From assembly GCF_900188085.1 (NCBI RefSeq), contig NZ_FZOU01000001.1:558001-622000 (forward strand): a stretch of 64,000 nucleotides of DNA. Direction: 5' to 3'. The first letter of the stretch is position 1, and each line of letters opens with the position of its first letter. A program made the position numbers and the translations under genes. This stretch comes from Granulicella rosea. Its GTDB lineage: Bacteria > Acidobacteriota > Terriglobia > Terriglobales > Acidobacteriaceae. Positions 14,936 to 32,923 of the stretch are shown here, one piece after another. The notes beneath the pieces were generated by a model, which was not told the origin of the DNA, ran no database searches, and saw nothing but the letters and a program-made list of their open reading frames with translations.

Positions 14936-15039
14936 CCTGGGTCCGGCGACGTATACCACTGTTTCGATTGCACTTATGGGTCAAACTTTTATGACCTTCC
15001 CACCTTTGCCGGACTGCTATTCTGAATAGGCAGATGAGA

Positions 15040-15086
15040 CGGGAGCGCTGGACCTCTAACCGGGTCCGGTGCTCCCGTTTTTGTTT
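15040..15086 (+). terminator. Intrinsic terminator after the regulator gene
   Basis: CGGGAGC...GGACC (15040-15053) pairs with GGGTCC...GCTCCCG (15062-15077), followed by TTTTTGTTT. It separates the regulators from the structural genes, so late expression may need a separate promoter or antitermination. Confidence 0.75.
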
Positions 15087-15117
15087 GCGGCAGAAAACGG
15101 CGAAGGCGAGGAGTGAC

Positions 15118-15783: not shown

Positions 15784-15830
15784 CGGGTGGACGTATTGGA
15801 AGCAGAGGATTTCGCTTTTGCTTTCAGGCA

Positions 15831-15893
15831 GGCCAAGGCTTCAGCCTTGGCGTTCGGAGCCGCCGCAAATCGGGGCTTTAGCCCCTGGGGTAT
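15831..15893. repeat. Family B-like hairpins inside the phage cluster
   Basis: GCCAAGGCTTCAGCCTTGGC and GGGGCTTTAGCCCCTGGGG: diverged members of the two-hairpin unit, between the protease gene and the next gene. Confidence 0.65.
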
Positions 15894-15925
15894 GCCTTCG
15901 CGCGTGTCCGCTCTGGGCAAAGTTG

Positions 15926-16000
15926 AAAGACAAAATACGGGGGTCTCTCCGCTACGCATCGCGGTACAGCCGCGACGCTTCGGTCGAGATGACGCACCTG
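15926..16000. repeat. Family A arm inside the phage cluster
   Basis: ATACGGGGGTCTCTCCGCTAC through GCTTCGGTCGAGATGACG, matching the right arm of the unit at 1240-1470. The left arm is missing. Confidence 0.7.
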
Positions 16001-16024
16001 GTTGCTGAACAGACAGGAGACAAG

Positions 16025-16417
16025 ATGAGTTTCGTAAGTGTGTTGGAGGCAGTAGGCAAGGACTTCGTGAAGGGGCTGAAGTGGGCCCTGACGTACGCGG
16101 TGCCGGTGGAGCGGCTGGTGGGGCTGGTCTTTCCGGCGACCGCGCCGGTGGCGGCCGAGGCGATCGACGCGACCACGCTGATTCAGTCCGCGGTTGTGCT
16201 GGTCGAGCAGAAGTATGCCGCGGCCGGCGTGCAGAACGGCACCGGCGAGCAGAAGCTGGCCGAGGTGCTGCTGCTGGTCGGGCAGACGGTGAGCGCGCTG
16301 CTGGCCAAGGCCGGCATCACGGCAAGCAGCGACTACGTCGCGAACCTGGTCTCGGCCGTGGTCGCGATTCTGAACGTGCAGAGCATGCCCGCCACGACGA
16401 CCACGGGAGGCCAGTAA
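16025..16417 (+). CDS. Small helical phage-cluster protein (holin-like?)
   Basis: 130 aa starting MSFVSVLEAVGKDF with AGGAG at good spacing. Amphipathic and hydrophobic helices dominate: a VPVERLVGLVFPATAPVAAEA segment, a VVLVEQKYAAAG helix, and a C-terminal ANLVSAVVAILNV helix. No charged catalytic motif is present. Segments recall LLH-type phage holins, but no clear single TM topology was established. The stop overlaps the next start (TAATG). Function uncertain. Confidence 0.45.
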   Translation: MSFVSVLEAVGKDFVKGLKWALTYAVPVERLVGLVFPATAPVAAEAIDATTLIQSAVVLVEQKYAAAGVQNGTGEQKLAEVLLLVGQTVSALLAKAGITASSDYVANLVSAVVAILNVQSMPATTTTGGQ

Positions 16418-16975: not shown

Positions 16976-16991
16976 ATTGGAAAGGAAAAGA

Positions 16992-17963
16992 ATGAACATC
17001 AAGTTTACGGATCTACACGCAGCGGCGGACTACATCGGACCTGGCGCTATCGAAGTCCCGCTTTACCAGTCGGAGATCACCGACCTGGTGCGCCGTCGCG
17101 GACTCTTCGGCCAGCGCATCAAGCAGGTGCCGGCCACCGGCCATCCGTCGCGCTACTTCGAGGAGACGTCGATTCCCTCGCCCGCGGCCAGCTCCGGCTT
17201 CGTCGACCCGCGCAACATCGTCGCGCCGCTGGTCTCGCCCACCCGCGTGGAGCGCAGCGTGCCGCTGAAGGCGCTGGTCGCGCAGATCAACTACAACCTG
17301 TTCGACATCGAGCTGGGCAAGCAGCAGAGCCAGTTCGCCTATCTGCAGGCCAAGGATCTGACCGACACGGTCGACGGCGTCCTGCGCACGCATGACGTCG
17401 CGCTGTGGAACGGCACCGACACCAGCCTCAGCTCGCCCACCACCGCGCAGTATTTTGGCGCGGCCGGCCAGATCGCCGCGGGCGGCAACTCGGTCACCAT
17501 CGGCAGCACGCAGTCGATCGTCGACGGTCTGAAGAGCACGATCGCGCAGATGGTCTCGAACTCCAGCTACGGCGTGCGCCCGACGGCGATCTACGCCAAC
17601 CCCGTACTGCTCGACCTGATCGACCGCGAGATGAAGTCGGAGTTCAACGTCGTGCTGGGCACGAAGGAGATCACCTCCGGCTTCACGGTGAAGATGCTCT
17701 CGACCCAGGCGGGCGACATTCCGCTGATCCCGGAGTGGACGCTTCCCTACACCGGCACGCCGGGTTCGGGCAGCGCGGTGCTGCCGGCCTACATCGTGAC
17801 CGAAGACCTGATCGAGTACCACTGGCTGAGCGACCCGAACCCGCGTGTCTTCCAGCTCGGCGTACCCGGCTCGCTGGCCTCGCAGTACGTGGTCGTGAAG
17901 TTCGGCGGCGTGGTCGTGAAGGGCGCGAACTACGCGCACTACCAGGTGCTGGTCGACCGCTAA
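16992..17963 (+). CDS. Major capsid protein, HK97-like fold
   Basis: 323 aa with a purine-rich Shine-Dalgarno region (GGAAAGGAAAAG). It has an extended N-arm, an E-loop-like region (RIKQVPATGHPSRYFEET), then an alpha/beta P-domain with the helix LVAQINYNLFDIELGKQQSQFAYLQAKDL. A YIVTEDLIEYHWL strand and a late QYVVVKFGGVVVKGANYAHY strand complete a pattern seen in tailed-phage capsid proteins. Cluster position (after protease and scaffold-like genes, before the connector) strongly supports it. It is intact. It probably self-assembles into the shell if expressed. Confidence 0.75.
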   Translation: MNIKFTDLHAAADYIGPGAIEVPLYQSEITDLVRRRGLFGQRIKQVPATGHPSRYFEETSIPSPAASSGFVDPRNIVAPLVSPTRVERSVPLKALVAQINYNLFDIELGKQQSQFAYLQAKDLTDTVDGVLRTHDVALWNGTDTSLSSPTTAQYFGAAGQIAAGGNSVTIGSTQSIVDGLKSTIAQMVSNSSYGVRPTAIYANPVLLDLIDREMKSEFNVVLGTKEITSGFTVKMLSTQAGDIPLIPEWTLPYTGTPGSGSAVLPAYIVTEDLIEYHWLSDPNPRVFQLGVPGSLASQYVVVKFGGVVVKGANYAHYQVLVDR

Positions 17964-18056: not shown

Positions 18057-18674
18057 ATGGGATATCTACAACCGGCCGAGTACCAGGCCTACGGCCTGAG
18101 TGCGGAGACCGGGGACGATTGGATCGCGACCGCGTCGGCGTTGATCGAGGCCTACTGTCGCCGATGCAGTCTGATGGCGACCGAATACGTCGAGCGCATA
18201 CGGCTGACGCCCGGCTGCCAGACCGTGCGGCTGAGCTACGGGCCGCTGTTCAGCAATGCGCTGGTGGGCATACGCGTACGCTACGGGCGGCCGCGGCGCG
18301 GCGAGAACGGGCCGCTCGATGAGCCGATGCTCGCGCAGGTGGCCTTCGCCTTCGGCCTGCCGGGAAGCTGGAGCACGCTCGATCTTGCGAGCGTCGACCT
18401 GAATACCGGCCCGCGCGAGGTCACCTTCGCGGCGAACTTCCTCGGGCTGGACTACAACGAGGTGGAGGTGACCTATACCGCCGGATTTGTAACCGTTCCG
18501 GTTGCAGTCAAGGTGGCGTGCGCGCAGATCGTGAAGAATGCGCAGGCGACGCCCGCGCTGAACGTGCGTTCGAGCAAGCTGGACACGATGCAGATGCAGT
18601 ACTTCAGCGGCAGTCTGATCGATCCGCAGGTGCAGGCGCTGCTGCGGCCCTTCATCGCCGAAAGGCTGGGTTGA
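18057..18674 (+). CDS. Head-tail connector protein (gp6-like)
   Basis: 205 aa. The start YLQPAEYQAYGL...DDWIATASALIEAYCRRCSL is characteristic of gp6-like head-tail adaptors, an alpha-helical N-terminus that docks under the portal. A beta-rich insertion (about 45-130) and a C-terminal helical part with PVAVKVACAQIVKNAQA follow. AAAGGAGG lies 5 nt before the ATG. The TGA is immediately followed by the ATG of the next gene, so they are co-translated. Confidence 0.65.
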   Translation: MGYLQPAEYQAYGLSAETGDDWIATASALIEAYCRRCSLMATEYVERIRLTPGCQTVRLSYGPLFSNALVGIRVRYGRPRRGENGPLDEPMLAQVAFAFGLPGSWSTLDLASVDLNTGPREVTFAANFLGLDYNEVEVTYTAGFVTVPVAVKVACAQIVKNAQATPALNVRSSKLDTMQMQYFSGSLIDPQVQALLRPFIAERLG

Positions 18675-19100
18675 ATGATGGCGACCATGCATGCACTGGA
18701 GCGGATGGCGGATGCGCTGCTGCGCGGTTGCGGCGGCGAAAAAGTGACGCTGCGCATGCCCGCGCCCGCGATCGCGGGAGACCCAGCCGAGCAGATGGGG
18801 CTGGCGCAGCCGCAGTTTCAGGATTTTGTGCTTGTGCCGGTTACATTTCGCAGGCTGCGTCCGAAGGTCGGAGCGAAGAACGAGGCCGCGGGCTATGAGC
18901 TGCTGGTCTCGGCCACGGCGGTCGAGACGTTGCTGACTTCGCTGGCGTATGAGGCGGCGAGCGTGCTGTTCCAGAACGCCGCCGGAGTGCTGGTGGGCGA
19001 GGCGCTGCTGCGGGTGGATTCGTGTACAGCGGTGGAGATGTTCGGGGGCGTGATTTTGTATCGGATTCAGTTACACGATCCGCTGGCGTTGCTGGTGTAG
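18675..19100 (+). CDS. Phage neck/tail-joining candidate
   Basis: 141 aa starting MMATMHALERMADAL, directly abutting the connector stop. An N-terminal amphipathic helix and mostly beta-strand-like sequence match the size and position of head-closure or stopper proteins of tailed phages. No specific family motif was recognised. The call rests on position. Confidence 0.45.
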   Translation: MMATMHALERMADALLRGCGGEKVTLRMPAPAIAGDPAEQMGLAQPQFQDFVLVPVTFRRLRPKVGAKNEAAGYELLVSATAVETLLTSLAYEAASVLFQNAAGVLVGEALLRVDSCTAVEMFGGVILYRIQLHDPLALLV

Positions 19101-19258: not shown

Positions 19259-19290
19259 CATTTGTGGTGCTCGAAGGAAAAGGAGGACAT

Positions 19291-19788
19291 GTGCAGGATG
19301 CGCGGGATACGTTTTATGCGATGTTGCGGGACCGGATTGCGGCGGGCAATCCGGCCCGTACGGTGGTCGTGCGAGGGGCCACGCGGCCGGGCGTGGTGGT
19401 GGTGGAGAATGAACTTCCGGCGGCTTCGGTCGACGGGCTCTCGCTGACCGATGTCTTCTGCCTGCGGTGGACGGCGCTGCGCGTGGAGGCGGGCGCGCTG
19501 CCGCTGGCGGCGATGACGTGCGAGGTCCGCTACGGAACGGACGGCACAACCGGCGCCGCGGGCATGGACCGGGGCCGGGCGCTGGCGGCGATGGATGCGG
19601 AACTCGCGTTTGCGCTGCAAACCGAGCCCCAGTCGGCGCCAAAGCTCTCATTTGTAACCGGCGTGGTTCGCGGCACGAATGTCTTCTGGAGCGATCCGCT
19701 CTTCGGGCCGGTGGCGACGCATGGCGAGCGGCTGGAGCGCGTGGCGACGGTCGAGGTCTACAGCTACCAGGAAGCGGGTGAGCTATGA
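19291..19788 (+). CDS. Tail terminator/completion candidate
   Basis: 165 aa from a GTG preceded by AGGAGG (4-nt spacing). In-frame GTGs upstream at 19264 and 19267 lack a ribosome site. It is an alpha/beta protein of the size of tail-completion or terminator proteins, with an N-terminal helix DARDTFYAMLRDRIAAG and later strands (VATVEVYSYQEA). Its TGA overlaps the ATG of the next gene. The function is inferred from order: connector, neck, terminator, tube. Confidence 0.45.
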   Translation: MQDARDTFYAMLRDRIAAGNPARTVVVRGATRPGVVVVENELPAASVDGLSLTDVFCLRWTALRVEAGALPLAAMTCEVRYGTDGTTGAAGMDRGRALAAMDAELAFALQTEPQSAPKLSFVTGVVRGTNVFWSDPLFGPVATHGERLERVATVEVYSYQEAGEL

Positions 19789-20753
19789 GCGTCCCGATTG
19801 CAGGTGTGGCGCCGGTAAGCCGCAGAGTGAGGGCGTACTTCGCGCCGGTAAACCGTGCTGGGAGCGCACCGACGCTCTTCGACCCGGCCAATATTGCCTC
19901 GTTCAACGTGGATGCGCCGCCGGCGCCGTGGGTGGATCTGGGTTGGTGCAGCGGATTTGTGCGCAAATCGGGCACACATATCGCCGCGCTGAACACGGGC
20001 GCGCCGGCGATGGCGGCGGGCCAGGCGCGGACCGAGGTCGAGGCCACGGTCTCGCTTGAATTCGAGAGCTGGGGCAAGCTCCAGTTGGCGCTGGCCGCGG
20101 GCGTGCAGCAGATGAACGTGCTGAAACCCGCTGCTGGCGCGGCTGCGAACGGTTCGGGCGGCGTCGCCGCGACGGCCTTGCCGCTGGCGACGGATTCGAC
20201 CGCGACCGCGCTCGACGTGGGCACGACGGCGGCGCCGAGCTTCAACGTAGGCGATGTGGTGGCGGTCGATGTGGACTATGTCGCGCAGGTGGGTTTCGTG
20301 GGCAGCGGGGTGAGCGGCGGGTATGTAACCAGTCCGGTTGCAGTTGCGAGCGATCCGAACTACATCCGTCGCGTGACGCTGAATGTGGGCCGCGTGACGG
20401 CGATTGCGGGCGGCGTGCTGACGCTGGGCGCGCCCTTGCCGGCGGGCATTCCAGTCACGGGCATGAAGGTTTCTCCGGTCGCGGCCTTCTGCGATCGCGA
20501 GGGAGGCGGCTTCTTTCAGGAGTGGTCCGCGCTGTTCGTGCTCGATGGCGCCGAGGGCGACCGGGTGATCTTCCACTATCCGCGGCTGCAGAGCATGGCG
20601 GGGATTGCGGAGAAGACCGAGGCGCTGGCGGGCGGACTTGCGAAGCTCCGGCTGGCCGGGACGTTTCGCGCGCTGCCGGTGGTCGACGCGAACGATGGCG
20701 AGCGCGTGGTTTGTTTTCGGAGCTATCTGGCGGCGGCTTTGCGAGCCGTTTAG
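19785..20753 (+). CDS. Phage tail-tube-like protein
   Basis: 322 aa. The N-terminal part contains WVDLGWCSGFVRKSGTHI and TEVEATVSLEFESWGKLQLAL, a pattern of tail-tube proteins. The middle contains a small beta domain with a VAVDVDYVAQVGF strand and a proline/valine-rich loop. It ends with RLAGTFRALPVVDANDGERV. It is longer than a minimal tube protein because of the inserted domain. It is coupled to the upstream gene by an ATGA overlap. Confidence 0.5.
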   Translation: MSVPIAGVAPVSRRVRAYFAPVNRAGSAPTLFDPANIASFNVDAPPAPWVDLGWCSGFVRKSGTHIAALNTGAPAMAAGQARTEVEATVSLEFESWGKLQLALAAGVQQMNVLKPAAGAAANGSGGVAATALPLATDSTATALDVGTTAAPSFNVGDVVAVDVDYVAQVGFVGSGVSGGYVTSPVAVASDPNYIRRVTLNVGRVTAIAGGVLTLGAPLPAGIPVTGMKVSPVAAFCDREGGGFFQEWSALFVLDGAEGDRVIFHYPRLQSMAGIAEKTEALAGGLAKLRLAGTFRALPVVDANDGERVVCFRSYLAAALRAV

Positions 20754-20769: not shown

Positions 20770-20876
20770 CAAAAGACAACAGCAGATTCCCTGCGGGAAT
20801 GACAAACAGAGAACAGGCAACCGCAAAGGCCAATACGGGGGTCCTTCGCTGCGCTCAGGATGACGAGCTGTATGGG
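20770..20876. repeat. Family A half-unit with an associated motif
   Basis: GCAGATTCCCTGCGGGAATG (20782 on) followed by GCCAATACGGGGGTCCTTCG and CTCAGGATGACGAGCT. The same two-part arrangement recurs at 48133-48238. Confidence 0.75.
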
Positions 20877-20925: not shown

Positions 20926-23900
20926 ATGGGTTTGAGACGCAAGAGTTGGACGCTGGTGGAGGTGTTGCTGGCGCTTTCGTTGCTGCTGGGGGTGAGCTAT
21001 GCCCAGGCGCCGACGACGCAGGTGACGGAGACGGTTTATCACGCGGATGGAACGGCTGCGGCCGGCACGCTGCTGGTGAGCTGGCCTTCGTTCACAGCGG
21101 CGAGCGGCGCCTCGGTGCCGGCAGGCTCCACCTCGGTGACGATCGGCGCGGGCGGCGCGATGACGGCGTCGCTGGTGCCGAACGCGGGCGCGACGCCGAT
21201 AGGGAGTTTCTACACGGTGGTGTATCACCTGGACGACGGCAGCACGACGCGCGAGTACTGGGTGGTGCCGGTGAGCGCGTATCCGGTGCAGGTGAGCGCG
21301 ATCAAGAGCTCGGTGCTGCCGCTGAGCGTGGCGATGCAGACGGTGAGCAAGTCGTATGTGGACACGGCGATTGCGACGGCGATGACGGGGCATCCGCTCG
21401 ATAGTTCGACGCCGTATGTGCTGAAGACCGGGGATACGATGACGGGTCCGCTGGTGCTGCCGGGAGATCCGACCTCGGCCCTGCAGGCTTCGGACAAGCA
21501 GTATGTGGACGAGCAGGCAGCGGCGTTGACGGCGGGTCTGGCGCAGAAGGTGAGCACCCTGCCGACCTCCACGCAGACGGTGTCGCAGCCGCTCGGCACG
21601 ACGCTGGCGGTGAACGACCTGAACGGCGTGCAGTATGCGAGCCAGTCGGTGAGCTCCGCGGGCAACGACGGCATCGCCAATGCGACCGCGGACGCGGACT
21701 GCGCGAGCGGCTGCGCGGTGGTGGCGGAGCCGACCTACGGCGGGACCGAGGCCGTGGCGCCGGCGACGTGGAACGCGCAGACCCATGTGACCGATCTGCG
21801 CGGCGGAGCGGTGGTGGATACGTTTCTGAACCCGGAAAATCCGCACGCGGGCGGCGTCGAAACGGCCGCGACGGTGCATGTGGTTTCGACGCGCAGCTCG
21901 GCCGGTCTGAAGGCGACGGAGGGCGTGGCGGAGCCGTTTTCGCTGGGTCTTTCGGTCCAGCAGGAGGGTCTGGCCGGCGGTTCGAACCTGTTTCCGCAGC
22001 AGATCCAGGGGTCGGTTCCCTACTTCAAGACAACCTACACGGCGACGCAGGTGACGGGTGTGCAGCATACGCTGGGCCAGCATGTGCTGGCGGGCTTCAG
22101 CCAGACCTGCTACGCGGTGGGCGACTGCCTGCTGGGCGGCCAGTTGCTGGTCTCCTCGGGCGGCTTTCGCGACGACGCGGACGAGGCGACGCATCCCTTC
22201 GACCTGCAGTACAGCGAGGACACGCAGGTCTTCGACGGCACGTGCGCCAGCGGCTGCACGACCGGTTCGACCAGCGTGCAGGTGACGGCGACAGCAGGAG
22301 CCGGGACGCAGGGCGAGGGTCGCTACCTGATCGACACCAACCCCGCGAAGGTGCTGACGAGCGGCACGCTGACAGGCGGCAGCAATACCGATCCGCTGTC
22401 CGGCGGCATCGCGCGGCAGCCGAGCGCGACCTTTAGCGGCACGAGCTTTCCGGTGAGCGTGCTGATGGAGACGGCGCAGTTGATTCCGACGCAGGCGAAC
22501 GACGTGCGGCCGGGCACGGTGACGGTGCAGATGGCGACCAGCGGCGTGCCGGCGGGCTTCCAGACCAACACGGCGGCGCTGCCCACGGCGAGCGGCGTGG
22601 CCTGCGTGACGGACGCGGCCGTGAACGATGGGCGTCCGCTGAACTACGAGATGGCGGCCTATACGACCATCGACGGCAGCCACCTGAGCCTGACGCTGAA
22701 CAAGGCGCACGCCAACGGCGCAACCGTCGCGGTGGGCGGGCTGTGCGGCTATGGACTGGAGCAGACGGTCGATACGTTGAACGGCATCCGGCAGGTCTTT
22801 CCGGTGGTCGCTTCGACCAGCGCGACGACGCTGCTCTATGCGGGCGGGCAGACCGCGATCGTGGGCGTGCAGTCGAACACGAGCGCGTACCTGAATGTGA
22901 ATGCGTCGATCGCTTCGGTCTCCCGCAGCTCGAATGTGGTGACGGTGACGACGGCGGGTAATCTGCCGGTGGACGTAAGCGGTCTGACGCTGACGATCGC
23001 CGGGGTGTCGGACTCGAGCTTCAACGGCAGCTTCGCCGTGACCTCGACCGGGCCGAACACCTTCACCTTTGCGCAGAGCGGCGGAAACGCCACGAGCACG
23101 GGCGGCGCGGCGACGGTCGTGACCGGCGGCTATGCGCTCTATCCGATGGCCGAGGTGCTGGGCGTCTTCAACACGGCGACCAAGGCAGTCGACGGGCAGT
23201 TTACTCTGGCGGCGAACAACGTGGCCTGGGCGGCGGGCGACACGGTGGAGCAGCCGCACTACTTCCAGGAGTCGGTGCTGGCCGATACGGCGTTCGTGCA
23301 GCAGTTCGCGCCGCGTCCGACGCGCGTGGGCGTGGCGGGCATTGCGTACGCGGGCAACAACGGACCGGGCCTGACGGGCTGGCAGATCAACAACACGGCG
23401 TCCAGCTCGCTGTATCTGGGCAACGGCGGCACGCACACGGCGCCGGATTCGGCCTACCAGGCGCTGGGCGTCTGGAACCGTACGATGAGCCTGGAGGCGG
23501 GCGAGCGGGCGGCCTTCGCGGTGCATTGCAACTCGCACGGCTGCGGCAAGTGGAACTCGGCCTACAACCTCTTCGAGCTGGACTCGAACGTGGGTGTGGA
23601 TACGGTCGGGTATACGCCGACGACCAGCACGCTGAGCTTCAACCTGCGGGGGACACAATACGGCCTGAGCCCCACCTCGCTGACCGCAGGCACCATCAAC
23701 GCCAGCACCATCAACGCGACGACGATCAACGCAGGCGTGGTGACGGGTGCGATCCCGGCGTCGAACCTGCCGGTCTTCCTGGCATCCGGTGCAGGACACG
23801 CGCAGGGCGCGGTGCCCGATCCCGGCGCCACAGCCAGCGCCACACGCTTTCTGCGTGAGGACGGAACGTGGAGCACGCTGGCGCCGGCGCTGCCGGTCAC

Positions 23901-25545
23901 GCCACAGTGCGAGTTCCTCTTCGCAGGCGGCTCGGGTTCTACCTGGCCGGCGACGGTTGGCTCGTACACGGCCACGCTGGGCACGGGCTCGAACGCACCC
24001 GCATGGGTGCAGGGCGGGCTTAGCTTCAACGCCTCGGCGAACAACTATGCCACGATCCCGGCGGGCTGCCTTGGCGGCGCGAAGACGATCCTGCTGGTGT
24101 ACACGACCGATCTCTCCCAGATGAACGGGAACGGAAACGGCTTCGGGCCGATCGTCTCAAGCGATGCACCCGGAACCTTCATCAACGTGCCGCCCTCGGC
24201 CCCACAGCAGGGTCCGGGATACCTCGTCGGTGCGAACCCGGTCTTCACCAGCACCGACCGCATCACCGGCACGGTAGCCGCATCGCTGACCTTCGACGCC
24301 ACCGCGCCGAAGGTCTATATCAACGGCGCGCGGCTTTCCTCGGGCAACTTCACGCCGGTGAACGGAACGCCCACGTCCTTCCCCGCAACCACGACGACGT
24401 GGCTCGGTGACGTTCAGGGTTCCAGCCTGTTCACCTGGGGCGGCACGTTGAGCGCCGTCATCGCGTTTCCCAGCGAGCTGAACTCGCTCCAGCAGGAGCA
24501 GGCGTTCGAGGCGGTTCAAGGTTCGCTGAAGCCGTACAGCGTGCTGCCCGAGGATCGCACCGACTACAGCCAGGGCGTGATCGTGGCGGACGGCGACTCG
24601 GTGCGCGAGACCTCGGTCTGCGCGTACCGCTATGCGTGCGCCATCACCGCGCAGGCGGTGGCGAGCCTTGGTCTGAACGTGCCGTTCTACAACATGGGTA
24701 AGGGTGGCGCAGCCTCGGCCGATCTGCTGGCCGCGTATCCCACGAAGATCGCGCCGGTCTTCAGCAAGTTCGGCCCCTCGCCGCGCGTGCTGATGCTCGA
24801 AGGCGGCATCAACGATATCGCGCACGGCGTCACCGACCCGAACGTGATCTTCACCAACCAGTACAACGAGTGCGCGCTGGCCGTACAGCAGGGCGCGGTC
24901 TGCAGCCTGACGACCGTACCGCCGAACGAGGCCTTCGACTCGACGCATGAGGCGGAGCGCCAGTCGTATAACCACCTCGTCGTCAACAGCGTACTGAACG
25001 GCCTTGTGCCGGCGGTCGCCGTCTCCGACTGGGCGGGCGACCCAGTAATGGGCAACCTGAACACCCCGGCCAATACGCTGTATTACAGCGATGGCACGCA
25101 CCCCACCGCCACCGGAGCGCCGATCTTCGCGCGGTACGATGCGCTGGCGCTGCACCGTCTGCTCAGCCCTTCGACGCCCTACTGGATGAAGGTCAACGTC
25201 AACCCGGTCGCGTTCGTCGGCATCAACAGCACGACGTACACGATGCCTCTGCTGCAGTTGATGCCGAAGGAAAAGGTCTGCGGCGTCACGCCCAATGCGA
25301 CCGCCGCGATGGCGGGTACGGGCATCACGGCCCTTACCTTCAACACCGGCAACTCGCTCGCAGGCGCGACAACCTACGGCAGCGCGTTCAACGCAGCAAC
25401 CGTCAACTCGGTCGACTATCCCGCAGCGGCAAACGTTCCGGGCAACGGCGTGATTCAGGCAAGCTGGACCGCCACGGGCGCCAACCTGAGCGCGATCAAT
25501 GCAGGCTCGGTCGACGTGAACATCTGTGTGGTGACACAGCCGTAA
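20926..25545 (+). CDS. Exported fibre-like protein with SGNH hydrolase domain
   Basis: 1539 aa; the ATG is preceded by GAGGAGGG. Residues 1-28 look like a signal sequence (RRK, then a VEVLLALSLLLG core, AQA cleavage site). The WTLVEVLLALSLLLG stretch also resembles a prepilin N-terminus, but the residue before it is Ser rather than Gly. Residues 165-205 match tail-fibre repeats (TGDTMTGPLVLP, then ALQASDKQYVD). A long beta-rich middle and a concanavalin-like region (about 1010-1190) follow. A GDSL/SGNH esterase domain has GDS at 1223-1225, GGIND at 1293-1297 and DGTH at 1389-1392 (catalytic S, N, D/H all present). It has about 18 cysteines, many in short CxxC/CxxxC-like spacings, suggesting disulfides outside the cytoplasm. 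Confidence 0.7.
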   Translation: MGLRRKSWTLVEVLLALSLLLGVSYAQAPTTQVTETVYHADGTAAAGTLLVSWPSFTAASGASVPAGSTSVTIGAGGAMTASLVPNAGATPIGSFYTVVYHLDDGSTTREYWVVPVSAYPVQVSAIKSSVLPLSVAMQTVSKSYVDTAIATAMTGHPLDSSTPYVLKTGDTMTGPLVLPGDPTSALQASDKQYVDEQAAALTAGLAQKVSTLPTSTQTVSQPLGTTLAVNDLNGVQYASQSVSSAGNDGIANATADADCASGCAVVAEPTYGGTEAVAPATWNAQTHVTDLRGGAVVDTFLNPENPHAGGVETAATVHVVSTRSSAGLKATEGVAEPFSLGLSVQQEGLAGGSNLFPQQIQGSVPYFKTTYTATQVTGVQHTLGQHVLAGFSQTCYAVGDCLLGGQLLVSSGGFRDDADEATHPFDLQYSEDTQVFDGTCASGCTTGSTSVQVTATAGAGTQGEGRYLIDTNPAKVLTSGTLTGGSNTDPLSGGIARQPSATFSGTSFPVSVLMETAQLIPTQANDVRPGTVTVQMATSGVPAGFQTNTAALPTASGVACVTDAAVNDGRPLNYEMAAYTTIDGSHLSLTLNKAHANGATVAVGGLCGYGLEQTVDTLNGIRQVFPVVASTSATTLLYAGGQTAIVGVQSNTSAYLNVNASIASVSRSSNVVTVTTAGNLPVDVSGLTLTIAGVSDSSFNGSFAVTSTGPNTFTFAQSGGNATSTGGAATVVTGGYALYPMAEVLGVFNTATKAVDGQFTLAANNVAWAAGDTVEQPHYFQESVLADTAFVQQFAPRPTRVGVAGIAYAGNNGPGLTGWQINNTASSSLYLGNGGTHTAPDSAYQALGVWNRTMSLEAGERAAFAVHCNSHGCGKWNSAYNLFELDSNVGVDTVGYTPTTSTLSFNLRGTQYGLSPTSLTAGTINASTINATTINAGVVTGAIPASNLPVFLASGAGHAQGAVPDPGATASATRFLREDGTWSTLAPALPVTPQCEFLFAGGSGSTWPATVGSYTATLGTGSNAPAWVQGGLSFNASANNYATIPAGCLGGAKTILLVYTTDLSQMNGNGNGFGPIVSSDAPGTFINVPPSAPQQGPGYLVGANPVFTSTDRITGTVAASLTFDATAPKVYINGARLSSGNFTPVNGTPTSFPATTTTWLGDVQGSSLFTWGGTLSAVIAFPSELNSLQQEQAFEAVQGSLKPYSVLPEDRTDYSQGVIVADGDSVRETSVCAYRYACAITAQAVASLGLNVPFYNMGKGGAASADLLAAYPTKIAPVFSKFGPSPRVLMLEGGINDIAHGVTDPNVIFTNQYNECALAVQQGAVCSLTTVPPNEAFDSTHEAERQSYNHLVVNSVLNGLVPAVAVSDWAGDPVMGNLNTPANTLYYSDGTHPTATGAPIFARYDALALHRLLSPSTPYWMKVNVNPVAFVGINSTTYTMPLLQLMPKEKVCGVTPNATAAMAGTGITALTFNTGNSLAGATTYGSAFNAATVNSVDYPAAANVPGNGVIQASWTATGANLSAINAGSVDVNICVVTQP

Positions 25546-25559
25546 GAACCTGTTCAACA

Positions 25560-25672
25560 TGCTCGGTTGCCCCATCCTTTCGGCTTCATCGAAAGGGTGG
25601 GATGCACACCGTTTGAGCGGTCTACGTCCCACCCTTTGCTCAAAATCGAGCAAAGAATGGGGCGCCCGGGCA
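25560..25672. repeat. Family C inverted pair upstream of terminase
   Basis: GTTGCCCCATCCTTTCG...GAAAGGGTGGGATGC and CGTCCCACCCTTTGCTC...AAAGAATGGGGCGCCC. The terminase frame stays open through this repeat, giving an artificial upstream ATG. Confidence 0.75.
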
Positions 25673-25698
25673 TTGGGTTGGAGGAACCAGAGGACGAT

Positions 25699-27189
25699 GT
25701 GGAGGAACACAAGCTGGGGCTGGAGGACCTGCTCGCCTGGGGTAAGCTCCTGCGCGAGCGGAAAGAGATCGATGGCGCGCCGGCCGGGATTCACCTGGCC
25801 GGCGAGTACCTGAACGTGAGGCTGAAGACCGGCGAGCTGGCCCCGCTGCATGCGAATACGGCGCAACGGCTGTATGAGCAGCGGCGGGGCCGCGGTAACA
25901 TCGTACTGAAGGCAAGACAGATGGGCATGACCACCTGGATCGCGGGGCAGTATTTTCTGCGCACGATCACCCAGGAGGGTGTGATGACCGTACAGGTGGC
26001 CCAGACCATCGAGGCCGCCCAGAGCATCTTCCGGATGGTGCAGCGCATGTGGGAGAACCTGCCCGAAGAGCTGCGCACCGGACCGTTGAAACGCAGCCGC
26101 AATAACATCGGGCAGATGTCTTTCCCGGCGCTCGACAGCGAGTTTCGCGTGGTGAGCGCGTCGGACGAGAACGCCGGACGCGGCCTGACGATCCACCACC
26201 TGCACTGCAGCGAGGTGAGCCGCTGGCCGCGCGACGCCTCGGCCACGCTGGCCGGGCTGCGCGCGGCGCTGACGCCGGACGGCGAGATCTGTCTCGAGTC
26301 CACGCCGAACGGCGCCTATGGCTGCTTCTACGAGGAGTGGATGCGGGCCTCGGGCAACGGGCCTGAAGAGAGTCTGGTCCAGCACTTCTTTCCCTGGTGG
26401 CTGGAGCCGGCGTATGTATCCACAGCGGTTACAGATATGAACGTAGCCGAGCTGGAGTTGATGAACCGGCACGGTCTGTCGGCGGGCCAGATCGGCTTTC
26501 GCCGCACGCTCGAACAGCGCTACCACGGGCTGCGCGCGCAGGAGTTCGCCGAGGACGCGGTGAGCTGCTTCAAGTCCAGCGGCGACTGCTGCTTCGAGGT
26601 CGAGGCGGTCGAGCAGCGTCTGCGGGCGCTGGGCGGACCGGTGCAGACGAAGCGAGGCGGCGCGCTGCTGGTGTGGCTGCCGCCGGTTCCGGGCAAAGGC
26701 TACATCGTCGCGGTGGATACGGCGGGCGGCGGCCCGGACGGCGACTACGCCGCGATGCAGGTGATCGAACGTACGACCGGCATGCAGTGCGCGGAGCTGC
26801 GGCAGCGGCTCTCGCTGATCGAGACGGCGAAGCAGGCGGCGGCGCTGGCGCGGGAGTACAACAACGCGCTGCTGGTGGTGGAACGCAACAACCACGGGCC
26901 CGCCGTGCTGGCGAACCTGGAGTCCACGGAGCGTTACGAGCGCGTCTACGAACGCGACGGCGTGCCCGGCTGGCTGACGACGGCGAACAGCAAACCCGCC
27001 GCCATCAGCCGGATGAGCACGCTGCTGTCGGAGTCGCCGCAGCTCTTCCAGAGCAGACGCCTGCTGGAGGAGTGCCGCAGCTTCGTCACCTTCGCGGGCG
27101 GGCGCACGGGCGCGGCCAACGGCTCGCACGACGACTGCCTGATGGCGATGGCGATCGCGCAGGCGGTGCGGGCGGAGATGCACAGGTAG
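25699..27189 (+). CDS. Terminase large subunit
   Basis: 496 aa from a GTG preceded by AGAGGA. Earlier ATGs lie in the family C repeat and are not favoured, but the start is uncertain. ATPase: Walker A-like KARQMGMT (residues 71-78), a Walker B/catalytic SE at 171-172 in HCSEVSRWP, and the coupling-like STPNGA segment. Nuclease: D340 in VAVDTAGGGPDGD, E395 in VVERNNHG, and D478 in HDDCLMA. This is the motor that would package DNA into heads. No small-terminase gene was recognised beside it. Confidence 0.85.
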   Translation: MEEHKLGLEDLLAWGKLLRERKEIDGAPAGIHLAGEYLNVRLKTGELAPLHANTAQRLYEQRRGRGNIVLKARQMGMTTWIAGQYFLRTITQEGVMTVQVAQTIEAAQSIFRMVQRMWENLPEELRTGPLKRSRNNIGQMSFPALDSEFRVVSASDENAGRGLTIHHLHCSEVSRWPRDASATLAGLRAALTPDGEICLESTPNGAYGCFYEEWMRASGNGPEESLVQHFFPWWLEPAYVSTAVTDMNVAELELMNRHGLSAGQIGFRRTLEQRYHGLRAQEFAEDAVSCFKSSGDCCFEVEAVEQRLRALGGPVQTKRGGALLVWLPPVPGKGYIVAVDTAGGGPDGDYAAMQVIERTTGMQCAELRQRLSLIETAKQAAALAREYNNALLVVERNNHGPAVLANLESTERYERVYERDGVPGWLTTANSKPAAISRMSTLLSESPQLFQSRRLLEECRSFVTFAGGRTGAANGSHDDCLMAMAIAQAVRAEMHR

Positions 27190-27242: not shown

Positions 27243-27323
27243 CCCGAAACGGGAAGATTTCCAGCGATAGGCGAACGGCCCGATCCACCCCGTGCAGTAT
27301 GCTTGCTCCGAGGGCTTCGGACG

Positions 27324-28184
27324 TTGGCGGTACTGGCGGTACAGGCGATTCGCAGGATGCGGGGCGGCGCGCAGAGCCAGTTGATGCTCGGCGCGGATGG
27401 CCGCCTGTGGGTGGTGAAGTTTCAGAACAATCCGCAGCATCTGCGCGTGCTGGCGAACGAGCTGATCGCGACCCGCCTGGCCGAGGCGGTGGGCCTGACC
27501 GTGCCGGCCTGCGACGTGGTCGAGGTGACGGACTGGCTGATCGCGAACACGCCCGACATGCAGATGCAGCTCGGCCGCGGGGTGCGCGCGCCATGCCATG
27601 CGGGGCTGCAGTTCGGGTCGCGCTATGTGGGCGGGCTGATGCCGGGGCAGGTGGTGGACTACCTGCCCGAGTCCCAGATGGACGAGCTGCGCAACCTGGC
27701 CGAGTTCGCCGGGATGCTGTGCGTGGACAAGTGGGCGGGCAACTGCAACGGCCGCCAGGCGGTGTACGAGCGGCGCCAGCGCGAGCGCAAGTATCGCGCC
27801 ACGTTCATCGACCAGGGCTTCTGCTTCAATGCGGGCGAGTGGAGCTTCCCGGATATCCCGCTGCGCGGCGTGTATGCACGCAACCACGTGTATGCGACCG
27901 TGTCGGGTTGGGAGAGCTTCGAGCCCTGGCTGACGCGCGTGGAGGAGTTCGACGCGCGCAAGCTGTGGGCCATCGCCGAGGCCGTGCCGCCGGAGTGGTA
28001 CGGCGGCGACACGGGCGAGATCGAACGGCTGATGGAGCAGATGGTGAAGCGCCGAGCAAGGGTGCGCGAGCTGATCGCCGCCTTTCGGGATTCGAACCGT
28101 GAGCCGTTTCCGCGCTGGACGGGAACCACCGTGGCGATGCGTTCGTTCCACGGCATCGAACGGGCTGGCGGGTTGGTGATGTAA
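27324..28184 (+). CDS. HipA-like kinase (HipA_2 family)
   Basis: 286 aa from a TTG preceded by GAGGG. An alternative TTG lies at 27303 and an ATG 11 codons further in. The family's N-terminus (IRRMRGGAQSQLML...VVKFQNNPQHLRVLANE) supports the present choice, with K32 as the nucleotide-binding lysine. The catalytic loop VDKWAGNCNGRQ (D135, N140) and metal-binding IDQGFCF (D163) are intact, so it is probably an active Ser/Thr kinase. HipA proper phosphorylates glutamyl-tRNA synthetase; the target here is unknown. No HipB-like HTH antitoxin is present. It is paired with a DUF3037 gene and lies between terminase and portal. Confidence 0.8.
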   Translation: MAVLAVQAIRRMRGGAQSQLMLGADGRLWVVKFQNNPQHLRVLANELIATRLAEAVGLTVPACDVVEVTDWLIANTPDMQMQLGRGVRAPCHAGLQFGSRYVGGLMPGQVVDYLPESQMDELRNLAEFAGMLCVDKWAGNCNGRQAVYERRQRERKYRATFIDQGFCFNAGEWSFPDIPLRGVYARNHVYATVSGWESFEPWLTRVEEFDARKLWAIAEAVPPEWYGGDTGEIERLMEQMVKRRARVRELIAAFRDSNREPFPRWTGTTVAMRSFHGIERAGGLVM

Positions 28185-28197
28185 GGGGAGGGTTGCG

Positions 28198-29061
28198 GTG
28201 GCGGAGCGTCTGCCGTGCGAGTTCTTCCTGATCCGGTATGTGCCGGATACGGTGAAGGGCGAGTTCGTGAACATCGGGGTGGTGCTGCGCGAGGCCGGCC
28301 TGGCGGGCGCGAGCGGCGCCGTGCCCGCCGTCCGCTCGGCCGTGCGGTTCACCCGCGACTGGGCGCGCGTGCGCTGCATGGACGCGGACGCCGACACCGA
28401 GATGCTCGAAGCGCTGGAGCAGGAGGTGGGGCGGCGTCTCGAACGCGGGGTCAGCTCCCTCGATCCGAAGCATGTGCTCGACACGTTCGAGGACGGGCTG
28501 TCGAACTCGATCCAGATCACCGAGGGGCGGGCTACCCTGGCCGAAAACTTCGCGGCCGAGCTGGACCAGTTGATGACGCTCTACGTCGAACCGCTGAAGG
28601 TCGCGCGCATTCGCGCGAAGAGTGGGCGCGCGACGATCTCGGGCGCGATCCGCACGGAGTTCGAGCGGGCCGGCGTGTGGGGCGCGATGCGCAAACGCAT
28701 TCCGGCCGCGCAGTACACCTCGGCGGGCGATCCGCTGAAGATCGACTGCGGCTATCGCTGGGATGCAGGGCCGGTCGTGCGGATGTTCCAGGCGGTCTCG
28801 CTCGAAGGCGATGTGGAGGCGGCCAAGGGGCTGGCCTTCTCCGCCCCGCAGTTGCGCGACGGCGTGGAACGGATCGAAGGTTCCGCGCTGGAGCTGACGG
28901 CGGTGATCGAGGCGCTGCGCGGCGGCGGCTTCGAGAATGAAGAAGCCGAGGAACGCTACCAGTTCGGCGTGGCGACGCTGGAGCGGCAGGCCATCCGCGT
29001 GGTCACGGTGAACGATCTGGCGCGGGCGGCCCAGACGGCGCGGCGGGAGCTTGGATTTTAG
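28198..29061 (+). CDS. DUF3037 protein, partner of the HipA-like kinase
   Basis: 287 aa from a GTG with GGGGAGGG before it. The opening CEFFLIRYVPDTVKGEFVNIGVVL is the DUF3037 signature. The rest is helical with an ESRxY-free, Leu/Ala-rich C-terminus. DUF3037 genes commonly follow HipA_2-family kinases (recollection), suggesting that the two proteins form a toxin/partner or kinase/substrate pair. It is 13 nt after the kinase stop, in one operon with it. Biochemical function is unknown. Confidence 0.75.
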   Translation: MAERLPCEFFLIRYVPDTVKGEFVNIGVVLREAGLAGASGAVPAVRSAVRFTRDWARVRCMDADADTEMLEALEQEVGRRLERGVSSLDPKHVLDTFEDGLSNSIQITEGRATLAENFAAELDQLMTLYVEPLKVARIRAKSGRATISGAIRTEFERAGVWGAMRKRIPAAQYTSAGDPLKIDCGYRWDAGPVVRMFQAVSLEGDVEAAKGLAFSAPQLRDGVERIEGSALELTAVIEALRGGGFENEEAEERYQFGVATLERQAIRVVTVNDLARAAQTARRELGF

Positions 29062-29345: not shown

Positions 29346-30587
29346 ATGGGTTTTGTGGAACGTGTGACAGAGGTTTGGCAGGGGCTGGCGGGTGTGAAGG
29401 CGGCCAACGGCGCCAGGAAGACGGCGGCGCTGCCCTCGATCCTGACGCCCTACACAGCGGGCGGACGCAACGGCGCGGCGGCGACGCCCAAGCCGACCGC
29501 GGTCAACCTGCGGCGGTTCGCGGAGACGCCCGTCGCCAGGCGCGCCATCAACATCGTGAAGGACCGCATCGCCAGCATGGACTGGCAGGTGCGCGTGCGG
29601 CGCGGTTGCACGGCGCCCGAGGATGCGCAGGCCAAGATGGAAGCCCTGCGCATGTGTCTCGAAGAGCCGAACGCGTCGGACAGCTTCCGCACGCTCTTCG
29701 AGCAGGTGCTCGAGGACATCCTGGTCGGCGGCTTCGGCGCGATCGAGATGGAGGCCACCGGCGATCCGGCGCGGCCCTTCGAGCTCTACGCGGTCGACGG
29801 CGCGACGATCCAGATCGACAGCCGCTGGTCGGGAGATCCGGCTACGCCCAGGTATACGCAGAGCGCGGGCCTCGCCGGAACGGGCGCGCAGGTGCCGCTG
29901 CTCGACGACGAGCTGATGTACATCCGGCTGAATCCGCGCACGCACACGCCCTTCGGCCTGGGGCGGCTGGAGGTCGCGTTCGAGACCGTGAATCAGTTCC
30001 TGAGCGCCAACCGCTACGCCGGCCGGCTCGCCTCGAACTCGGTCGTCCAGTACGCGCTGTGGCTGAACGAGGCCACGCCCGAGCAGCACGACCGCCTCAT
30101 CCGCTGGTGGCAGGACGAGATCGAAGGCACCGGCCGCGTGCCGCTGCTGAGCTGCGAGCAGAAGCCCGAGGTGCTGCGCTTCGCCGGCGGCACCGACGCC
30201 GATCTGCGCATCGCCTGGCAGGAGTTCCTGCTGCGCATGATCGCCAACGCCTTCGACCTGCCGCCGATGCTGCTCGGCCTGACCGGCGACGTGAACAAGT
30301 CGACCGCCGGCGAGATGGCCGACGACGCCTTCCAGTCCGCCATCGTACCCGTCGCGAAGCTGCTCGCCGGACACATCACGCGCGACCTCTTCGCCAAACG
30401 GCTGGGCTGGCGCGAGTTCGAGTTCGCCTTCAACGAGCTCGAAAGCCGCAATGAGATGGAAGAGGTGCAGATCCAGGTGCAACTGCTCAACGCCAAGGTC
30501 ATCACAGTGGACGAGGTGCGCGCGGCGCGTGGGCTTGCGCCTTTGACGCCTGCTCCCGAACCGGCTCCAGTTGAGGAGGCAGCTTGA
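29346..30587 (+). CDS. Phage portal protein
   Basis: 413 aa with GGAGG before the ATG. It belongs to the HK97-like portal family. Visible features are NIVKDRIASMDWQVRVRRG, LVGGFGAIEMEA, the helical stem region FGLGRLEVAFETVNQFLSAN, and the conserved MIANAFDLPPMLLGLTGDVNKSTAGEM near the end. Portals form the dodecameric DNA gate at one capsid vertex. It lies downstream of the terminase and the HipA/DUF3037 pair, but ~11 kb after the capsid gene, an inverted order compared with most tailed phages. The stop overlaps the next start. Confidence 0.9.
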   Translation: MGFVERVTEVWQGLAGVKAANGARKTAALPSILTPYTAGGRNGAAATPKPTAVNLRRFAETPVARRAINIVKDRIASMDWQVRVRRGCTAPEDAQAKMEALRMCLEEPNASDSFRTLFEQVLEDILVGGFGAIEMEATGDPARPFELYAVDGATIQIDSRWSGDPATPRYTQSAGLAGTGAQVPLLDDELMYIRLNPRTHTPFGLGRLEVAFETVNQFLSANRYAGRLASNSVVQYALWLNEATPEQHDRLIRWWQDEIEGTGRVPLLSCEQKPEVLRFAGGTDADLRIAWQEFLLRMIANAFDLPPMLLGLTGDVNKSTAGEMADDAFQSAIVPVAKLLAGHITRDLFAKRLGWREFEFAFNELESRNEMEEVQIQVQLLNAKVITVDEVRAARGLAPLTPAPEPAPVEEAA

Positions 30588-32923
30588 ACCTGACCTTCGA
30601 CAATCTGGATGGACTCGGCGCGGTGGACTACACGCAGGCCGTCGATGCTTCGAAGCCGCTGACGATCGAGCGTGTGTTGAACGAGCCTTCGATCTGTCAC
30701 GGCCTGCTGTGCCTTGCGGGCACGGCCTTGGCCACGCCTGTTCGCAGGGCTCGCGTGACGGTTACAAATAGCGCTGGAACGGCTTTATTCACGGGCTATC
30801 TTGCGACCGAACCGATCTCCGAATACGCCGGCTCGGCGAGCGCGGGACCGGTCTACCGGCTGGCTTTTTCAGCCGTCAGCGACGAGTGGCTGCTCGACCG
30901 GCAGGCGCCGTTCGGCGAGGCCGCTGGATTGGGCGCGCTGGCGGGCGCGGTTGTCGAACGGCTGGTGCAGCGGACGGCGGTGACGGGCTTCACCACGGCG
31001 GGACTCGCGGGCGGGACCAGGGCGGTCGGCGTATTTGTGCCTGAAAAGAGCACAAACTGGTCGGCGAAGGCGGGCGCCGCCGCGGCATCGGCCTACGCGG
31101 GCTATCGCGTGCTGAACGGGGCCATCGGGATCGCGCCGGTCGCCTCCGTCACGCATGCGTTCAACGACGGCGACGGCTCGCTGACGGTCGCGGCGCTGAA
31201 GACCTCGTCCGTCAAGGAGCTGGCCAACGACGTCAGCCTGAGCGGCGAGATCGAGCCGTGGGAGTATGTAACCGAAGTCGTTACAGGAGACGGAACCACC
31301 GCCGCCTTCCCGCTCGCCGAGCAGCCCTTTCGCGCCAAGGCCGGTCTGCGCCTGCTCGTGAACGACAGCTTCAACGCCGGCGCCTTCGACACGCGACTCT
31401 GGGCGGTGGCCGATCCGGGCTCGCACCTGGGCTTTTCAAGCGCGGGTCTCAACCTGACCGGCGGCAACGGCGCCGACGGCCAGACCACGCTGACGCTGCT
31501 CGACGCACTCGAGATGGGCGGCACACTGGTGCTCGAATCGGGCAGCACGCAGTTGACCGCGCGCAGCGACGGCGTCGTCTGCGGGCTCTACCAGGGCGCG
31601 ACCTCGCGGGCAAACTGCTTCGCGGGGTACAACGTGCGCCAGACGGGCGGCAACACGGTCGTCGTGCCCTACGTGAACGGCGCGGAGGTGGGCACGGCCT
31701 ACACGCTCGCGAGCGGGCATGCGTACACACTGCGGCTGCGGCTGCACTGCAACGAGCCGCTGCGCGTGCAGCAGACCTACTACGCGACGATCGACGGGGT
31801 GGTGACGCAGTTTGGCGGCGGGCTGAACGCGGCCCCGATGTCGGTCGTCTTCGACCTCATCGACCTCGGCGCGGCCTCGAACACACCCGCGACCGTGCTC
31901 TACGACGGCAGCATCGCGAGCACGCCGGCAAGCTGCACCTTCGTTCCGGTGAACAGCGTGCAACTGACCGGCAGCATCGGCTACGTGCGGGCGACGCAGA
32001 CCGGGTCGGTCTGGGTGACGAGCACGCCGCCCGGCTCGACGACCGCCACGCGGCTGATCGGCGTCGCGGGCGAGGGCGTGGACTGCGCCGTCACCTATGG
32101 ATCGGGCGCGCTGGATGGAGTGGATACCGGAAAGGTTACATTCTTCAGCGGACGCATTCCGGTCGCGAACGAGATTGTAACCGTGACGTATCGCGGCCGG
32201 CAGCGCGCGGTCGCGCGGCTGGAGGACGCGGCCAGCATCGCGGCGGAGGCGGCGGGCGGCGCCTCCGGAACAGCCGCCTGGCTGGGCAGGGTGGTCCGCC
32301 CACCCGCGCGGAGTTCGGCGGACTGCGAGGCGGCGGCCCAGGCCGTGCTGGGCTTCGCGGCCAATCGCGCCGCGGCGGTCGCGGGCAGTTATGTCGCGGT
32401 GAATCCCCCAGCCGACGTGTGGCCGGGCGATGTGCTGGCCCTGACGACGAGCGGCGACACCGCGAACGTGATCGTGCGCAGGGTCGTCGTCGAGGACCTG
32501 CACGCGCGTCCCGAGGCGCTACGCTACGCCATGGCCTTCGCGAACGACTGGGCCGAGGGGCTTGGTCTGGCGCTGAGCGAGAGCTTCGCCGCCGACGCCT
32601 TGCTGCCCCCGACCGCGGCGGCCACACCAGGGCTCGTGCTCGCGAACCTGGCGCAGCTTAGCGTCGTCAGCGTCAGCGCGACCGCGATCGTGGTCGACGC
32701 AGGCACGGCGCCGCCCACCGGCGGAGGCTTCGAGGTGCGGCGGCGCGACGGCGACTTTGGCCCGGGCGTCGACCAGGACCTCGTCCTGCGGTCGCCCGTG
32801 CGCGGCTTCACGATTCCCCGCGCGGCGGTGGGCGAGCGCTTCTATGTGCGGATGTACGACGCCTCGACGCCGCCGCTGTATTCGCGCGCGTCGAGCATGA
32901 TCGTCGCCAATGTGCCGGTTTAG
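30584..32923 (+). CDS. Baseplate hub-like tail protein with inserted beta domain
   Basis: 779 aa from a TTG that overlaps the portal stop (TTGA), with GAGGAGG upstream. Residues 1-190 contain a beta-rich module (RARVTVTNSAGTALFTGYL, RLAFSAVSDEWLLDRQ) like the first hub domains of late-control-type proteins. A concanavalin/jelly-roll-like insertion (about 255-470) follows. A second hub part contains ARLEDAASIAAEA and VNPPADVWPGDVLALTT. A C-terminal FN3-like domain (about 690-775) ends the protein. The long insertion is unusual and may bind a surface ligand. Confidence 0.55.
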   Translation: MNLTFDNLDGLGAVDYTQAVDASKPLTIERVLNEPSICHGLLCLAGTALATPVRRARVTVTNSAGTALFTGYLATEPISEYAGSASAGPVYRLAFSAVSDEWLLDRQAPFGEAAGLGALAGAVVERLVQRTAVTGFTTAGLAGGTRAVGVFVPEKSTNWSAKAGAAAASAYAGYRVLNGAIGIAPVASVTHAFNDGDGSLTVAALKTSSVKELANDVSLSGEIEPWEYVTEVVTGDGTTAAFPLAEQPFRAKAGLRLLVNDSFNAGAFDTRLWAVADPGSHLGFSSAGLNLTGGNGADGQTTLTLLDALEMGGTLVLESGSTQLTARSDGVVCGLYQGATSRANCFAGYNVRQTGGNTVVVPYVNGAEVGTAYTLASGHAYTLRLRLHCNEPLRVQQTYYATIDGVVTQFGGGLNAAPMSVVFDLIDLGAASNTPATVLYDGSIASTPASCTFVPVNSVQLTGSIGYVRATQTGSVWVTSTPPGSTTATRLIGVAGEGVDCAVTYGSGALDGVDTGKVTFFSGRIPVANEIVTVTYRGRQRAVARLEDAASIAAEAAGGASGTAAWLGRVVRPPARSSADCEAAAQAVLGFAANRAAAVAGSYVAVNPPADVWPGDVLALTTSGDTANVIVRRVVVEDLHARPEALRYAMAFANDWAEGLGLALSESFAADALLPPTAAATPGLVLANLAQLSVVSVSATAIVVDAGTAPPTGGGFEVRRRDGDFGPGVDQDLVLRSPVRGFTIPRAAVGERFYVRMYDASTPPLYSRASSMIVANVPV

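Follow-up and report, generated by a model that had tools for sequence, protein, structure and literature searches.

A predicted Sec-exported receptor-binding fibre in a gene-transfer-agent-like cluster of the Acidobacteriaceae

The phage-like gene cluster and its fibre gene

The 64,000-nucleotide stretch of the Granulicella rosea genome analysed here (the window) contains a run of phage-like genes, all those listed in Table 1 lying on the plus strand and followed by the housekeeping genes purE-purK. Open frames were present in all 15 cluster genes checked. A Pfam scan of 15 cluster proteins, which left out the 136-aa scaffold-like protein, revealed no integrase, recombinase or replication gene, so that on this evidence the cluster combines phage-derived head and packaging genes with an absence of replication and integration genes, a feature of gene transfer agents (GTAs). 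A plasmid origin was considered as well and gave no match. In genera other than that of the window the usual order is sigma, fibre, terL, hipA, DUF3037, portal, the gene in the protease place, MCP and adaptor, whereas in the window's genus blocks of the cluster are permuted relative to that order; the counts over 82 loci given here and in Table 1 are lower bounds since several loci end before the cluster does.

Table 1. Genes and fibre segments of the cluster (positions within the window)
Feature	Position	Strand	Basis and remarks
Sigma-like regulator, region 4 only	14153..14935	+	PF08281, E 8.7e-8; start uncertain
Conserved protein in head-protease place (guessed from position)	15034..15783	+	at least 56/82 loci
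Membrane/holin-like protein, uncertain	15764..16417	+	PF09682, E 0.01, under cut-off
Coiled-coil scaffold-like protein, 136 aa	16417..16827	+	tblastn of pre-MCP gene from L057/L053/L074
Probable HK97-fold major capsid protein (MCP)	16977..17963	+	Foldseek; ATG at 16992 likely
Head-tail adaptor	18057..18674	+	phrog_442, E 5.2e-18
Conserved protein in head-closure position (function guessed)	18675..19100	+	at least 29/82 loci
Conserved protein in tail-completion position (function guessed)	19264..19788	+	at least 29/82 loci
Conserved protein in tail-tube position, 322 aa (function guessed)	19785..20753	+	at least 27/82 loci
Fibre / receptor-binding protein, 1539 aa	20926..25545	+	ORF and RBS; single match in own genome
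Fibre: Sec-type signal peptide	20926..21003	+	residues 1-26; homologues against controls (see text); alignment
Fibre: N-terminal beta-rich domain of mature protein	21004..21306	+	family-wide alignment; hhalign to Dryad gp33; AF2
Fibre: phage fibre trunk repeats (YVD / GDTMTGPL)	21334..21594	+	tblastn to Streptomyces and Achromobacter phage proteins; hhalign
Fibre: shaft	21700..23544	+	ten cysteines (residues 259-873), each present in at least 14 of the 15 close fibres, which include that of the window
Fibre: SGNH/GDSL hydrolase domain	24592..25116	+	residues 1223-1397; PF13472; triad motifs
Terminase large subunit (terL)	25567..27189	+	PF17289, E 3e-8
HipA-like protein, first half of candidate defence pair PDC-M66	27303..28184	+	PF20613; PDLC04766, E 8.3e-10
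DUF3037 protein, second half of PDC-M66	28198..29061	+	PF11236, E 2.7e-19; PDLC04767, E 3.9e-8
Portal protein	29346..30587	+	PF04860, E 7e-52
Conserved 779-aa protein, candidate tail tip/hub (function guessed)	30584..32923	+	at least 27/82 loci
82-aa protein, one hydrophobic segment	32910..33158	+	cluster end, before purE

A weak structural model of the capsid protein (pLDDT 50.8) suggests the HK97 fold: the 50 listed of 288 PDB matches in Foldseek are tailed-phage or satellite capsid or vertex chains or encapsulin, with one at E below 0.001 (4.2e-4) and TM values of about 0.3, and a PDB profile search with the MCP found nothing. The protein in the head-protease place had no Pfam or PHROG match, and the L074 homologue of the scaffold-like protein gave weak matches, 2 of 13 to scaffold PHROGs. 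The tube-place protein and its L074 homologue had no PHROG match; the hub-place protein belongs to no named family, a PDB profile search with it found nothing, and PHROGs returned one weak match for 1 of 20 hub-place proteins. Neither a tape measure nor a lysis enzyme was recognised in the cluster, and the proteins in the tube and hub places could not be assigned to any named family. The 82-aa end protein is kept in two same-genus loci (L137 and L139) that lost most other cluster genes. As a separate observation, the HipA-like and DUF3037 proteins (27303-29061) match the PADLOC candidate pair PDC-M66A/B, and the pair occurs in at least 60 of the 82 cluster loci.

The fibre protein matches itself once in its own 5.29-Mb genome, with no second copy. 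Its open reading frame, the 18 cysteines, the motifs GDS1223, GGIND1293 and DGTH1389 and the AQA at residue 26 were all found where the original prediction had placed them. The motif GAGGAGGG, read as the ribosome-binding site, ends 6 nt upstream of ATG 20926; an in-frame ATG at 20860, 66 nt further upstream, is the less likely start since the ribosome-binding site stands at 20926, and aligned homologues begin at the equivalent of 20926 with a signal-like N-terminus. By sequence homology the protein is built like a phage tail fibre or tailspike, with an N-terminal region followed by trunk repeats and, at the C-terminus, a receptor or enzyme domain, so that the fibre-like body with an SGNH domain, as it had first been read, is borne out by trunk repeats, PF13472 and the triad motifs.

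The N-terminal domain and trunk align with gp33 of Streptomyces phage Dryad over residues 39-199 (hhalign 97.5%, E 8e-12), although much of this score may come from the trunk repeats since part of the aligned range is trunk. Dryad gp33 begins almost directly with the matched region, in which, together with the trunk, it is 71% identical to the phiRKBJ001 tailspike. These two proteins thus resemble the window fibre in N-terminal region and trunk, the homology having been computed for Dryad, but unlike it they have no signal peptide and have 2-3 cysteines in 1206-1431 aa. A tblastn search gave 18 phage records, and among the seven inspected, three resemble the N-terminal region and four only a later trunk repeat. 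Structure prediction had been proposed as a check on the domains: AF2 on eight sequences made the N-region beta-rich, but at an overall pLDDT of 39 it is a poor model of a docking domain. The model had no match in BFVD at E 0.001 or better, and a PDB profile search with the N-region retrieved phage hyaluronidases and relatives at sub-significant scores only.

The SGNH/GDSL domain is the sole Pfam domain of the window fibre (PF13472, Lipase_GDSL_2, E 6.7e-8), its 33.7 bits being barely above the 32.9 cut-off; the Ser, Asn and Asp-His blocks are in place, and the domain may act as an esterase. Of 15 close fibres, 12 still show recognisable motifs, whereas L022, L143 and L149 have lost them. A Pfam scan of 35 full-length fibres (34 of the 77 complete homologues and the window protein) found pectate-lyase-like domains in 10, GDSL in 4, BppL_N in 4, Laminin_G_3 in 2, and a phage-tail-repeat, an F5/8 and a YadA-stalk domain in one each, a variety that suggests a receptor-binding protein whose end, enzyme or lectin, can be exchanged. 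Inspection of the sequence by eye revealed no outer-membrane anchor on the fibre.

Signal peptide and cysteines of the fibre

Ordinary phage tail fibres and tailspikes are synthesised in the cytoplasm, and no signal peptide is expected on them. The fibres of this family depart from that expectation: a custom rule (n-region charge, hydrophobic core, small-x-small site), used instead of SignalP, was satisfied by 67 of 81 homologues. Among other proteins from the same clusters 1 of 426 satisfied it (134 further control rows, whose start could not be set, were skipped), and none of the seven inspected phage proteins with local similarity did. The Sec-type signal proposed earlier is thus no annotation slip. 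Half of the 14 failing fibres pass by eye given another start, and the remaining seven have no charged n-region or may be truncated. Across the family the signal is conserved in kind while its letters change, and export of the fibre via Sec appears well supported. The position of the cleavage site has to be revised. Signal peptidase disfavours proline at +1, which makes the AQA/P site originally proposed unlikely, and the sites ALA/Q and ARA/Q of relatives align with SYA/Q in the window fibre, where cleavage after residue 26 is likely. Signal-like starts extend to neighbouring genes as well: 50 loci with the fibre upstream of terL hold between the two a further 31 ORFs with a length of 200 aa or more, and 25 of these are signal-like by a laxer rule, so export seems to mark the whole module. 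Nine of the 31 were scanned with Pfam, giving three with beta-helix domains (two of them also with a polysaccharide-deacetylase domain), one Ig-like, one with a peptidase domain and four with no domain.

As for the cysteines, their number, on which the original prediction had dwelt, is ordinary, the density in fibres being 13.5 per 1000 residues against 18.1 in terminase; what is unusual is their parity. The count is even in 66 of 75 complete, cysteine-containing homologues (binomial p 8e-12, a value that overstates independence since the homologues are related), five fibres cut by contig ends having been excluded. No surplus of even counts appeared in any of ten control families, and the MCP leans odd (17 of 21). 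One locus (L025), from the same genome as L021, was excluded from the signal, parity, control-family and further-ORF counts. Besides the conserved cysteines of the shaft (Table 1), eight C-terminal ones, again an even number, are private to the window fibre, except that 1316 is common to three fibres. The inspected phage proteins with local similarity have 0-6 cysteines. A VKOR-type oxidase is encoded in the own genome. By the parity, the earlier claim that the fibre cysteines are likely to form disulfides, presumably in the periplasm, is supported.

Distribution and descent of the cluster

Of the 150 genomes sampled from the family, 88 carry the MCP gene, the window's own genome among them (73 of 110 if good assemblies alone are counted); each has a single copy without internal stops, and the other copies are 72-89% identical to that of the window. 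A phylum-wide sample of 297 genomes contained it in 25, all from the window's family and none from outside it. Over the 64 genomes with full RpoB matches, those with partial matches having been dropped, the identities of MCP and RpoB are correlated (rho 0.75). Two genomes (G008 and G044), however, combine an RpoB identity of 88% with an MCP identity of no more than 75 and 74%, so that in places descent departs from strict verticality. Trees of terL, portal and hipA (58, 54 and 59 rows, 8 rows in each tree belonging to no group) all recovered the two groups defined by RpoB, with a bootstrap support of 200 out of 200 trees. The purE-purK site is common to all 10 further same-genus copies, each of which ends at purE, and purE also lies near the cluster in L044, L049, L053, L057 and L086. 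In the last of these loci purK/purE stands within the cluster itself in inverted orientation, flanked by the protease-place gene and the MCP gene.

Selection appears to act differently along the fibre. For the MCP, dN/dS is 0.02-0.09 over six pairs, one of which comprises 40 codons, and for the fibre, at unsaturated dS, it is 0.07-0.29 in the N-part (eight pairs) and 0.26-0.52 in the C-part (six pairs); pairs with saturated dS were dropped, as was the terL value of 1.98 for L048/L067, which was taken as a broken alignment. This pattern suggests that the structure is kept by selection while the receptor-binding end changes fast. The cluster thus has three further features of GTAs, namely vertical inheritance, a fixed site (compared within the genus) and purifying selection, and its interpretation as a vertically inherited, domesticated, phage-derived and GTA-like element appears well supported by these comparisons. 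A metagenome-assembled genome labelled Rhodanobacteraceae (L022) has the cluster with the same alpha/beta-hydrolase flank (76%) and is probably a mis-binned contig.

The fibre is matched in 107 of the 150 family genomes, mostly via its N-terminal part; 83 have both fibre and MCP, 5 the MCP only and 24 the fibre only. Within the genus it occurs in 32 of 41 genomes, and at the purE site of five of the seven same-genus genomes without a fibre match that were inspected, one (G444) has nothing, two (G375 and G445) a remnant, one (G452) half a cluster and one (G443, L141) the whole cluster except the fibre. In four same-genus genomes (G435, G439, G448 and G453) the fibre matched as two adjacent pieces, suggesting split or decaying genes. 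Among good assemblies the median open frame of the fibre is 904 aa without the MCP (n=10) and 1533 aa with it (n=60; p 6e-4), and this argues that the fibre serves the particle; 10 of the 70 good assemblies with a fibre N-terminus lack the MCP, and five of those keep frames above 1000 aa. Five of the 107 fibre genomes were dropped from this comparison: the own genome, G029, G052 and G095, which have no N-terminal match, and G079, where the fibre is on a 4-kb contig. A link between fibre and particle is thus indicated by the shorter frame without the capsid gene and by the place of the fibre in a conserved capsid cluster.

Scans of viral contigs for the fibre returned 1 and 4 loci. Of the 27 IMG/VR loci with the capsid protein, 22 (L103-L115, L117-L124 and L127) show the same syntenic cluster and are therefore probably chromosomal fragments of the family listed as viruses. 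The other five (L116, L125, L126, L128 and L129) carry the same capsid protein at 72-78% identity in a different, phage-like context, the first four having been listed gene by gene, and capsid genes seem to have moved between the cluster and phages.

Possible role of the fibre

Several other readings of the protein have to be weighed. That the hydrophobic N-terminus goes unused, either because the true start lies downstream of it, the case which the original prediction had named as its counter-evidence, or because it remains as an uncleaved anchor, is very improbable: the ribosome-binding site precedes ATG 20926, the signals of the homologues agree with that start and are kept in kind family-wide while their letters change, and cysteine parity speaks against it too. 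Type IV prepilins have Gly or Ala at -1 and a conserved Glu at +5. The resemblance of WTLVEVLLALS in the window protein to such a segment, which had been pointed out before, looks like chance, because Ser stands at -1, a single one of 14 close relatives (L022) repeats the Glu of WTLVE (in L147 the chosen start is too far downstream for a judgement) and the body is that of a phage fibre, leaving a prepilin-like protein with a negligible probability.

It is improbable as well that the cluster is an ordinary prophage, active or decaying, whose fibre happens to be odd. Such a prophage could be argued from the five phage-like IMG/VR contigs with related MCPs and from Eichorst et al. 2018 (PMC5900883), who, in the part of that paper considered here, list as prophages regions that may be identical; the single open copy per genome, the vertical trees, the site fixed in the genus and the lack of an integrase or replication gene among the 15 scanned proteins are difficult to reconcile with it. 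A more substantial alternative, if still an unlikely one, is that the fibre is an independent secreted or surface adhesin that modifies polysaccharide, shares an operon with the capsid genes and never sits on a particle. The signal peptide and even cysteines would suit such a protein, three secretins offer an outer-membrane route, the 24 of 150 genomes in which the fibre but not the MCP is matched could be explained by it, and WceF of Pantoea stewartii, as described in the portion of PMC7949094 drawn on, is an exported enzyme with a tailspike fold. Against this stand the homology of the fibre N-terminal region to phage tailspikes, the position that the gene keeps in other genera, after sigma and before terL, and the shorter frame once the MCP is gone. 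We therefore favour, at a probability of about 0.55, the interpretation that the fibre is a Sec-exported receptor-binding fibre or tailspike of a domesticated, vertically inherited, GTA-like particle of one acidobacterial family, for which sequence analysis supports domestication, vertical descent, purifying selection, the signal, the even cysteines, the N-terminal homology and, through a weak model, the capsid fold.

The closest working analogue of the fibre, by description, is TspA of the Rhodobacter capsulatus agent RcGTA, which according to the available text of a preprint (PMC13420450) is a tailspike that degrades biofilm, is loosely attached and has a beta-sandwich at its N-terminus. RcGTA and the window cluster, likened here by description, are both made of phage-derived particle genes, and their hosts belong to different phyla. 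The gene tspA (rcc02623) adjoins lysS and is treated apart from the RcGTA cluster in that text, whereas the window fibre lies inside its cluster; the strings 'signal peptide', 'secret' and 'periplasm' are absent from the same text, whereas the window fibre has a Sec signal. WceF, in turn, appears to be the closest exported enzyme with a tailspike fold. It is exported, as is predicted for the window fibre, and it acts on exopolysaccharide; it differs in having a Tat signal and in sitting in an exopolysaccharide synthesis cluster, with no capsid genes mentioned beside it in the available text (PMC7949094), whereas the window fibre adjoins a capsid cluster. The acidobacterial prophage 'Cluster 153' of Eichorst et al. 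2018 (PMC5900883), with hosts that include Terriglobus, Terracidiphilus and others and also 'Ca. Koribacter' in the part considered, may be the same element, judged by hosts and low identity. It is described there as prophages, and neither vertical inheritance nor an exported fibre, both indicated for the window cluster, is mentioned in that part.

If the fibre does belong to a GTA-like particle, it would be threaded across the inner membrane by Sec, losing its first ~26 residues, and would trimerise and form disulfides in the periplasm, where it would wait for, or leave ahead of, the head-tail particles assembled and presumably packed with DNA in the cytoplasm. At lysis the N-terminal domain, homologous to phage tailspike N-termini, could dock on the particle, while unbound copies might modify the surrounding matrix or surface polysaccharide. 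The shaft would project an exchangeable domain at the C-terminus. In the window fibre this would be an SGNH esterase, which may remove acetyl groups from the capsule or exopolysaccharide of kin, while the fibres of relatives have pectate-lyase-like or lectin domains; DNA transfer to such kin would follow. In the literature searched we found no precedent for a cytoplasmic particle meeting a periplasmic fibre, and no acidobacterial gene transfer agent is described in the titles and abstracts found among open-licence literature. More tentatively, the Acidobacteriaceae might possess a hitherto undescribed GTA whose Sec-exported, disulfide-bonded receptor-binding proteins arm the particles outside the cytoplasm, the tailspikes perhaps being shared matrix enzymes that open the biofilm of kin. 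If this is right, a soil bacterial family would have an inherited particle system that is catalogued as virus contigs in a public collection, tail fibres would turn out to assemble also by way of the Sec pathway and disulfide chemistry, and gene exchange in the family would become directly testable, with a natural set of polysaccharide-active enzymes at hand.
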